A DNA stretch of 64,000 nucleotides from Branchiostoma floridae. Taxonomy: Eukaryota > Chordata > Leptocardii > Amphioxiformes > Branchiostomatidae. The position numbers and the translations under genes were made by a program. The DNA is taken from the NCBI RefSeq assembly GCF_000003815.2, contig NC_049985.1, forward strand, positions 25,700,448 through 25,764,447, written 5' to 3'. The notes below the pieces were generated by a model, which saw only the letters and a list, made by a program, of their open reading frames with translations, was not told the DNA's origin and made no database searches. Shown piece by piece: positions 3,405 through 25,100 of this stretch (within the stretch, counting starts at the first letter, position 1; each line of letters begins with the position of its first letter).

Positions 3405-4330
3405 CTAACCCACCTCCATGACATCCTCCTGTTGTTGTGTGAAGGCTAACTCTGCCTCCACCATGTAGAACTCAGACAGACATGACTAACTAACCCACCT
3501 CCATGACATCCTCCTGTTGTTGTGTGAAGGCTAACTCTGCCTCCACCATGTAGAACTCAGACAGACATGCCTAACTAACCCACCTCCATGACATCCTCCT
3601 GTTGTTGTGTGAAGGCTAACTCTGCCTCCACCATGTAGAACTCAGACATGACTAACTAACCCACCTCCATGACATCCTCCTGTTGTTGTGTGAAGGCTAA
3701 CTCTGCCTCCACCATGTAGAACTCAGACAGACATGACTAACTAACCCACCTCCATGACATCCTCCTGTTGTTGTGTGAAGGCTAACTCTGCCTCCACCAT
3801 GTAGAACTCAGACATGACTAACTAACCCACCTCCATGACATCCTCCTGTTGTTGTGTGAAGGCTAACTCTGCCTCCACCATGTAGAACTCAGACAGACAT
3901 GACTAACTAACCCACCTCCATGACATCCTCCTGTTGTTGTGTGAAGGCTAACTCTGCCTCCACCATGTAGAACTCAGACATGACTAACTAACCCACCTCC
4001 ATGACATCCTCCTGTTGTTGTGTGAAGGCTAACTCTGCCTCCACCATGTAGAACTCAGACAGACATGACTAACTAACCCACCTCCATGACATCCTCCTGT
4101 TGTTGTGTGAAGGCTAACTCTGCCTCCACCATGTAGAACTCAGACAGACATGACTAACTAACCCACCTCCATGACATCCTCCTGTTGTTGTGTGAAGGCT
4201 AACTCTGCCTCCACCATGTAGAACTCAGACAGACATGACTAACTAACCCACCTCCATGACATCCTCCTGTTGTTGTGTGAAGGCTAACTCTGCTTCCACC
4301 ATGTAGAACTCAGACAGGTGTCTCCTGCCC
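3405..4330 (-). repeat. 11-copy tandem array of the NARS2 exon 7 3' edge and its donor splice site
   Basis: The motif CACCTCCATGACATCC begins at 3411, 3496, 3581, 3662, 3747, 3828, 3913, 3994, 4079, 4164 and 4249. Spacing is 85 or 81 bp, differing by one 4-bp GACA. On the minus strand each unit holds about 65 bp of coding sequence (reading [20 protein letters not shown]) followed by the donor GAG/GTGGGT and about 15 bp of intron. Only the rightmost copy (4249) is attached to the rest of the exon; it differs from the others by one base (TCTGCTTCC against TCTGCCTCC). The other ten lie in the downstream intron and each keeps an intact donor. Confidence 0.95.
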
Positions 4331-22197: not shown

Positions 22198-25100
22198 TCA
22201 GCCAGACCCACAGCACCCCCCGTATGAGATATTAGTGGTCTCTCCTGTGATTTCGGTGATGTTTGGGTCGACCGTTTCTGTGTTCCTTAGCAGATACTTG
22301 CGGGCGTTTTTGGTTAGCTCCCTGGCGAGGTCCATGAAGACCGTTTCTACGTTTTCCGCCTCCTTGGCCGAAGCTTCTAGGAAGGCCATGTTGTTGGCTT
22401 GTGCGAACTGGAGACCTGTTTCTGGCGGCACTTCTCTTTGTGATGTGAGGTCAATCTTGTTTCCTACCAAGATAAAGGTGTTGCTTCATGTTAGAACAGG
22501 AAAATCAATATTGGGAAAACAAAATAATTTGTAGAGCACATTCAAATAGAATACAGTTGAGTACATGTATTCCGTCACCCGAGGAACCAGCCTACAGGTA
22601 AGATTACCCGAAGGCCAGAGGCTGATCCAACCGACGGGAGGGCTGGGACAGAGGGTGATGCGGAATACACCGTGTTGTATTTTATGTCATACACACATAA
22701 ACACACAGTTGGATGCAAAATGTGTCAGAAAATTTGGTGTCCTCAAACAAAAAATTGTTTCAACAGCAATTCCAAATTGTCCAAATGTCCAAATCCTGTA
22801 TTCAAATTGTTGACTTGGTGCATGCATGTGGAGTGCTTTTGATTTATTTGATGGAAGCCCATATGATACAACAGAACCTATGACCATGTGATCCGGCAAG
22901 TTTTCATCTGGGCTGGAACACTTGTATCTGGTCCAGGTATGACATAAATATAGAATACAACACGGTGTATTCCGTATCACCTGAGGTACCAGCCCGACAG
23001 CGGGTCGGATCGCCCGACGGCCGAAGGGTGATCCGACCGGCGGGAGGGCTGGGTGTTTTATTTATGTCATACCCACCTGAGAAAACCCGATGCGAAATGC
23101 GCCAGAAGTTGAACAAATTTGGTGCCCTCGAACAAAAAGTGTTGCAACAGTAATGTTCCAACGTCCGAATCAGGTATTCCAACTTTTGATGGCGCCGCAC
23201 TCGGCCCGCTCGAAACAGTTCGATTTATTCGAATGGAGCCAGTGTGATACAACTTAGAGAAGGTCTGATACGGAAGTTATCACCCGGTCCAGAACACCCG
23301 TATCGAACGTTTTCGCGTCACATGTATGACATAAATGGTACTTACCGACTAGCACAGTGATGACCTGCTGGTTAGCGTACTGCTCGATAATCTGTCCCAG
23401 GTACGACGTAAAAGGTACTTACCAACTAGCACAGTGATGACCTGCTGGTTAGCGTACTGCTCGATAATCTGGCCCAGGTATGACATAAATGGTACTTACC
23501 GACTAGCACAGTGATGACCTGCTGGTTAGCGTACTGCTCGATAATCTGGCCCAGGTATGACATAAATGGTACTTACCGACTAGCACAGTGATGACCTGCT
23601 GGTTAGCGTACTGCTCGATAAGCTGGCCCAGGTACAATATAAATGGTACTTACCAACTAGCACAGTGATGACCTGCTGGTTAGCGTACTGCTCGATCTCC
23701 TTCAGCCACTCGGGGAGACAGTCGAAGCTCTCTCTGGAGGTGACGTCGTACACCAGGATGAGGGCGTGGGCACTTCTGTAGTAACTCTGGGTGATGGAGC
23801 GGAACCTCTCCTGGCCTGCCGTGTCCCAGATCTGCAGCTATAGACAACATGTACACATGTAACATGTTAGGTTAGGGCACACGTACACATGTAACATGTT
23901 AGGTTAGGGCACATGTAACATGTTAGGTTAGGGCACATGTAACATGTTAGGTTAGGGCACATGTAACATGTTAGGTTAGGGCACTTCTGTAGTAACTCTG
24001 GGTGATGGAGCGGAACCTCTCCTGGCCCGCTGTGTCCCAGATCTGCAGCTGTAGACAACACGTACACATGTAACATGTTAGGTTAGGGCACATGTAACAT
24101 GTTAGGTTAGGGCACATGTAACATGTTAGGTTAGGGCACTTCTGTAGTAACTCTGGGTGATGGAGCGGAACCTCTCCTGGCCCGCTGTGTCCCAGATCTG
24201 CAGCTGTAGACAACACGTACACATGTAACATGTTAGGTTAGGGCACATGTAACATGTTAGGTTAGGGCACATGTAACATGTTAGGTTAGGGCACTTCTGT
24301 AGCAACTCTGGGTGATGGAGCAGAACCTCTCCTGGCCCGCCGTGTCCCAAATCTGAAGCTGTAGGAAACATGTACACATGTAACATGTTAGGTTAGGGCA
24401 CATGTAACATGTTAGGTTAGGGCACTTCTGTAGTAACTCTGGGTGATGGAGCGGAACCTCTCCTGTCCTGCCGTGTCCCAGATCTGCAGCTGTAGGAAAC
24501 CAATAAACTCTTTTGTAGTGATGAAACCTTTTGTAGTATCTATAGACGTGTGGATTCTACCACCACAGATGAGTCTTCATTCAAAGTACTAGACAATTGT
24601 CGCCATTTCAATAGCATTTTATTGCCATTCTTGTTGAGGGGAACAAGGGCACTGTGTCTGTGGTCCATGTGCCTGTTACAATGGAGAGCAGATCCTCTTG
24701 CTAGTAGAAAATTCTGATTGACCAGGGATGCTATTAGGTCACATGTGGCCAGTTTTTTGAGAGTCAGCGAAAATCAAAGCAAGCGCGAATGTCATCCATA
24801 AAGTCAGTGTGGCCTTACCTATAGAGTTGCCAATATTTCCAGGATCCCACAATATTAATGCAGACCATAACGTAACAATTATCATACATGTATCTCCCCA
24901 ATAAGTCTTGCTTTTATCATTTACAGAGCACCATCTCACCTTAACCTTGTCTCCATCCACATCTACAGTCTTGATCATGAAATCCACACCAATGGTAGCT
25001 CCCTGGCCGGGGGGGAACAGGCCCTGTGGGGTACCAACAAGGAAAATGGTATCAACCATAGGCAAATACTGCAGTCAGCAGGTACCCTGTATGCATTTAG

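Follow-up and report, generated by a model that had tools for sequence, protein, structure and literature searches.

Four tandem arrays that carry exon edges into the adjoining introns of two Branchiostoma floridae genes are very probably mirage minisatellites, that is, ordinary local tandem duplications across an exon-intron junction that expanded like a minisatellite and were tolerated because the terminal copy alone is spliced. The kind is already described, and the arrays are four new members of it in two genes. The earlier note on this DNA had recorded four cases of exon-edge copying in the two genes, on 5' and 3' edges alike, and all were confirmed by unit listing, three of them by TRF as well; its view that no described system resembles them does not hold, since amphioxus mirages have been published (PMC3087553, PMC3902484).

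The assembly searched comprises 513,431,437 bases in 431 contigs, and the 64-kb window, by which we mean the whole stretch of DNA analysed, lies at C7:25700448-25764447. Exon models based on open frames and splice sites were made for two genes of the window, both on the minus strand. The RAB30 model has 206 codons; its closest solved structure is Rab-30 (2ew1, E 3.8e-86), and it matches the Pfam Ras model at 2.6e-62. The NARS2-like model runs to 284 codons from the start of an asparaginyl-tRNA synthetase; its best match among Asn-tRNA ligases has an E of 2e-43, and the joined exons match Pfam tRNA-synt_2 (9.8e-26) and also AsnRS. The reading frames of both modelled genes are open. We take NARS2, the mitochondrial enzyme, to be the name for this Asn-tRNA synthetase gene, and the neighbouring genes in the window are presumably PCF11 and DDIAS. 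The PCF11-like open frame at 43799-46547 holds long coding repeats of the WEEDHRRWEEDMRRWEQDGRKGQPPQEPL and GPGPRMD types. The features discussed below are listed in the table.

Exons, exon-edge arrays and contrast cases in the window
Feature	Position	Strand	Description	Basis
NARS2-like exon 7, authentic	4248..4384	-	donor TGG/GTTAGT	open frame, splice sites
NARS2-like exon 7 donor array	3402..4317	-	85/81-bp units	TRF, unit listing
NARS2-like exon 3, authentic	7682..7802	-	acceptor tttccccag/TGGCC	open frame, splice sites
NARS2-like exon 3 acceptor copies	7866..8439	-	three, diverged, upstream of exon 3	unit listing, self-comparison
18-bp minisatellite	7110..7508		NARS2-like intron; spans no exon edge (contrast case)	TRF, self-comparison
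RAB30 exon 3, authentic	23654..23837	-	mirages flanking both sides	open frame, splice sites
RAB30 exon 3 donor array	23324..23696	-	77-bp unit	TRF, unit listing
RAB30 exon 3 acceptor array	23768..24500	-	units 131, 155, 155, 211 bp	TRF, unit listing
89-bp tandem duplication	36464..36642		81% identical; ~85 bp before PCF11-like coding segment, edge not spanned (contrast case)	self-comparison

The edges copied into the adjoining intron are two donors (NARS2-like exon 7 and RAB30 exon 3) and two acceptors (NARS2-like exon 3 and RAB30 exon 3). In all four cases the repeat unit straddles the exon-intron boundary, combining about 25-70 coding bases with 14 to more than 100 intronic bases. The breakpoints are variable and none falls at the splice site, contrary to the earlier statement that the copies start at exon boundaries; inspection of the junctions of the window arrays by eye revealed neither a breakpoint motif nor a fixed distance to the splice site. 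The divergence between copies differs by array, from near identity at NARS2-like exon 7 to clear divergence at NARS2-like exon 3.

The unit of the exon 7 array consists of the last 67 coding bp, the donor and 14-18 intronic bp, and is present in 11 copies, the exon's own and ten in the intron. The TGG/GTTAGT donor is retained in every one of the 11, and each of the ten intronic copies shows one mismatch to the exon across the 67-bp coding part. An assembly-wide search with the unit returned 11 matches, every one inside the array at the sensitivity of the search; a dispersed repeat carrying a splice site was ruled out for this exon on that ground. The last unit is truncated where the array meets an element with terminal inverted repeats. 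This short element (3071-3400), whose terminal inverted repeats are 29 bp long (93%), borders the array directly at its distal end.

At exon 3 of the same gene, each acceptor copy comprises ctgtttcccc(c)ag and about 25-35 coding bases, and a dispersed element that is 84% identical to 6351-6526 has been inserted between two of the copies. The introns of the NARS2-like gene also contain two copies (76%) of a dispersed element of ~570 bp, at 4442-5005 and 5409-5976, one of which stops 6 bp from exon 6 and the other ~22 bp from exon 5. The 18-bp minisatellite in this gene has the unit GGTACGGACACTACTGGG, and similar units at about 6594-6770 suggest an array split by insertion.

Exon 3 of RAB30 is copied at both edges. 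The donor unit couples 43 coding bp of the exon edge to the donor GTAAGT, and the acceptor unit is composed of a CAG or TAG acceptor, 69 coding bp and 24-bp subrepeats; each array comprises the authentic edge and four copies. In the acceptor array the furthest-upstream copy has a repeat-free flank and the furthest-downstream copy carries the remainder of the exon. The donor arrays open with the copy that bears the exon. This unit geometry, with an exon-bearing terminal copy and a repeat-free outer flank, is that of DNA tandem duplication.

The splice dinucleotide (AG or GT) is intact in all 21 intronic copies of the four window arrays, and an early stop would follow if any of the 21 were spliced; for exon 7, whose downstream exons lie outside the window, the predicted stop sits within the retained copy itself. 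Only the terminal, exon-bearing copy yields an open frame, from which we infer that splicing uses this copy. Use of a decoy adds a stop codon, and selection would therefore keep splicing at the authentic copy. The same two counts are also what would be seen if the decoys were used in regulated unproductive splicing, with nonsense-mediated decay tuning the level of the RAB30 or NARS2-like protein. Young copies, however, retain everything, so that intact sites are expected without selection, and according to PMC3087553 neither the RT-PCR of the globin genes nor the data on Adh3 reveal interference with regular splicing. We find regulated use of the decoys hardly credible.

Under tandem duplication with tolerance, the reading we prefer, a segment of ~40-200 bp across an exon-intron junction would be duplicated head to tail by local duplication that is random and high in rate. 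The array would then be expanded and homogenised as any minisatellite, presumably by slippage or unequal exchange. The terminal copy would stay joined to the body of the exon and the remaining copies would become intronic decoys for splicing to skip, the array being otherwise tolerated at the exon edge as long as splicing holds to the authentic copy. All observations are consistent with the suggestion, made in the earlier note, that selection tolerates copies only where splicing masks them. Since most duplications inside exons would do harm, and duplications far inside introns would pass without effect, it is the arrays at exon edges that look odd.

Structures of this sort, called mirages, are described in the amphioxus globin genes BflGb6 and BflGb9 (PMC3087553), where the Adh3 mirage of Canestro et al. 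2002 is also cited. As set out in PMC3087553 and PMC3902484, the published mirages have the same anatomy, their copy number differs between haplotypes, and regular splicing is said to be undisturbed. Lancelet PGBD5 contains 60- and 108-bp tandem repeats that overlap exons 3 and 4 at splice sites, with a copy number that varies among assembly versions, and troponin C is cited as a further case (PMC3902484, 2013). Passages of a paper on amphioxus huntingtin mention scaffold tandem repeats and make no mention of mirages (PMC2206037). No genome-wide count of mirages was found in the literature searched.

The window arrays resemble the amphioxus mirages (PMC3087553) in that their units straddle the boundary, their copies carry AG or GT and both types of exon boundary are hit. 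Together with the arrays of an XRCC6-like gene and of Ras-family genes described below, they differ from the Adh3 and globin cases in their hosts, in the occurrence of copies at both edges of a single exon, and in being accompanied by a first small estimate of frequency. With the PGBD5 repeats they share the location of lancelet tandem repeats at splice sites; unlike the arrays here, the PGBD5 copies are described as imperfect and part of one block was annotated as exon (PMC3902484). Duplication within genes of segments that carry splice signals is also the basis of the Rogers model of intron gain through tandem duplication of AG/GT sites, as cited in PMC3087553, and a potato case of intron gain by tandem duplication is on record (PMC4974935). 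In contrast to intron gain, an existing intron merely enlarges here.

When the window was compared with itself, direct repeats of at least 25 bp, lying no more than 3 kb apart and with E up to 1, fell into 13 clusters. Read individually, four of these hold the exon-edge arrays, the cluster at 22566-23696 also having an intronic pair. Coding repeats account for three (at 16.7, 43.8-46.1 and 46.2 kb), pairs of dispersed elements for two (4.4-6.0 and 28-30 kb) and weak matches of 30 bp for another two (2.1 and 63.0 kb). The remaining two are duplications in non-coding DNA off any known exon edge (6587-7521 and 36464-36642). Within the NARS2-like and RAB30 genes, an exon edge is spanned by four of seven local-duplication clusters, compared with 0.98 expected when a founding unit is placed uniformly (P 0.008) and 3.65 expected when whole arrays are shifted (P 0.55), P values that prove little because the window was picked on account of these arrays.

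The mirage structure recurs elsewhere in the assembly, in an XRCC6/Ku70-like gene and in several Ras-family genes, which bears out the recurring theme of the earlier note beyond the window. The first of these came from a sample of twenty-one 10-kb loci (the start of contig C1 and 20 round positions; 210 kb, about 204 kb without N), in which 36 clusters of local direct duplications were found at thresholds of at least 35 bp, 70% identity and E up to 1e-3. Such a density indicates that this genome is generally prone to local duplication. An automatic frame-crossing check was applied to the 28 clusters with an offset below 450 bp, and three clusters were read by eye; exon ends are unannotated in these loci, and no rate is claimed from them. 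One of the three, L005, is a clear mirage. Two joined exons at this locus match solved XRCC6 (E 8e-11), and the start of the XRCC6-like exon is copied twice upstream, each copy beginning tgtag/GAGAC and the stretch AGTTCCT.ATGCCCAGTGATAT being common to them. An array beside an ankyrin exon in L021 was considered as a mirage and rejected, its repeats being without exon sequence, and an array in L007 is a coding-like repeat with no Pfam match. The L021 array (7476-9068) directly adjoins the ankyrin exon, and its units, ~164 bp long, abound in telomere-like CCCTAA repeats.

A small version of the splice-site test proposed in the earlier note was carried out on the same assembly with Ras-family genes, the exons of which were located by the Pfam Ras model. 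Set A comprised 20 loci of 1.2-2.7 kb, mostly exon pairs, hand-picked from the list of Ras matches; L022 was dropped from it before counting, as it had been chosen for displaying two copies. Set B comprised 20 exons taken by a rule fixed before retrieval (both profile ends interior, list order), from which L054 (a haplotig) and L059 (a decoy shared with its paralog L025) were excluded after viewing. The counted total was 37 loci with 53 exons, 106 exon ends and 70,271 bases, the window genes not among them, and the scope is accordingly one gene family in one assembly, with sets that are partly hand-picked.

By script, a local copy spans 10 of the 106 exon ends (two in L023, two in L032, and one each in L025, L029, L038, L042, L057 and L061), a rate that is diluted since some of the ends defined by the HMM do not coincide with true splice sites. 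Reading by eye likewise gave tandem copies at 10 of 106 ends, namely the acceptors of L023, L029, L032, L038, L042, L057 and L061 and the donors of L025, L032 and L061. The L061 donor fails the 8-bp rule of the script, since the model match there extends past the exon into intronic sequence. Of the two L023 ends flagged by the script, the second is a non-tandem copy. This copy, at L023 99-139, reproduces 41 bp of the donor edge exactly, lies ~600 bp upstream of the exon it belongs to, and gives a hint that template switching may be one route. In L057 the acceptor unit occurs 17 times at a spacing of 40 bp, and the final unit is that of the exon itself. L061 is a Ras-type exon with an acceptor-edge copy upstream and two donor-edge copies downstream, like RAB30 exon 3, and one of its donor copies, outside the window as it is, reads GC. 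In L032 (780-820) a decoy fuses the acceptor and first exon bases straight onto the donor of the exon, in the manner of a micro-exon. L022 (534-860) contains two tandem near-complete copies of a Ras-type exon, 75% identical, which are possibly mutually exclusive exons. L053 and L054 are haplotigs (99.9% over 1,646 bp, contig C276 versus part of C12), from which it follows that the assembly retains some alternative haplotypes; no array is shown in this pair.

Some of these loci could be taken to mean that the arrays are leftovers of whole-exon tandem duplication, decayed until the edge alone is recognisable. L059 holds a decayed copy of almost the entire exon including the donor, and the start-end decoy of L032 and the two near-complete copies of L022 point the same way; the edge copies of L059 and L032 do have the look of such remnants. 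The three younger arrays of the window argue against such an origin: their copies break off at a common point within the exon and, by TRF, resemble one another at about 95-98%, so that the unit is itself partial. None of the window copies is a complete exon with a splice site at each end and an open frame; they carry a single splice site and about 25-70 coding bp. Decay from whole exons is, in our judgement, highly unlikely as the source of the arrays, and duplication of partial, junction-spanning units is preferred.

Whether the edge itself attracts duplication is a separate matter, and here a preference for splice sites is suggested that depends on the null chosen. When one founding unit is placed uniformly, an exon end is spanned by 8 of 18 local-duplication events in the 37 Ras-family loci, versus 2.19 expected (P about 0.0005), an under-prediction that may make random duplication plus tolerance an incomplete account. 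The excess under this null appears in set A (5 of 10 events, expected 1.59, P 0.012) and in set B (3 of 8, expected 0.60, P 0.016; with L059 kept and L054 added, 4 of 9, expected 0.77, P 0.004). It persists when the count is restricted to events in which the pair is at least 90% identical: there are 11 of these, and 6 span an exon end where 1.35 would be expected (P about 0.0007). Neither a low-complexity filter nor the hand-adjusted bounds of three exons (L025, L032 and L038, changed after viewing) altered the result. Under the null in which whole arrays are shifted, by contrast, the pooled loci give 8 seen versus 5.99 expected (P 0.20), with P 0.41 for set A and 0.24 for set B. Three chaperonin genes, covering 12.65 kb and 15 exons located by HMM, had copies at 0 of 30 exon ends, a count biased against arrays because the three most compact of nine multi-exon genes were taken. 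The enrichment anticipated by the earlier note was thus seen under the founding-unit null and was not seen under the array-shift null or in the chaperonin genes, and we regard both the rate and the null-dependent excess as preliminary.

A process linked to transcription or splicing, such as R-loops, stalled forks or template switching at exon-intron composition steps, might duplicate splice-straddling segments more than other intronic DNA. The excess over the founding-unit null, including that among events of at least 90% identity, is in keeping with such a hotspot, as are the three exons that by eye are copied at both edges (RAB30 exon 3, L032 and L061). Set against it are the array-shift null, with no clear excess in the Ras loci or the window genes, the chaperonin result, and the breakpoints, which by eye keep to no set distance from the splice site in the window arrays or in the Ras-family loci. 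Moreover, selection preserves the sequence of an exon copy, which can therefore be recognised for longer than a pair of unconstrained intronic copies; old edge cases are inflated by this, young ones less so. R-loop or splice-directed mechanisms, the former entertained in the earlier note, are without direct support, the distance from breakpoint to splice site not being constant, and a hotspot of this kind seems to us possible but doubtful. Local tandem duplication that is tolerated at exon edges is retained as the account of the arrays.

The kind of structure described here may be far commoner in lancelets than the few published cases. It carries a warning for annotators, in that the PGBD5 annotation mistook part of one repeat block for an exon (PMC3902484). 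On a bolder reading, to which we lean less than to its opposite, splice-straddling segments of the lancelet would be a true hotspot of tandem duplication, with decoys at about one in ten exon ends, several-fold above random; the spliceosome would then routinely find its site among exact decoys, and the arrays would be a constant source of raw material for new introns and exons. If about one in ten exon ends do bear mirages, the lancelet would offer a natural experiment on how one is chosen among identical splice sites 40-200 bp apart, and would also be informative on the possible origin of new introns and exons.
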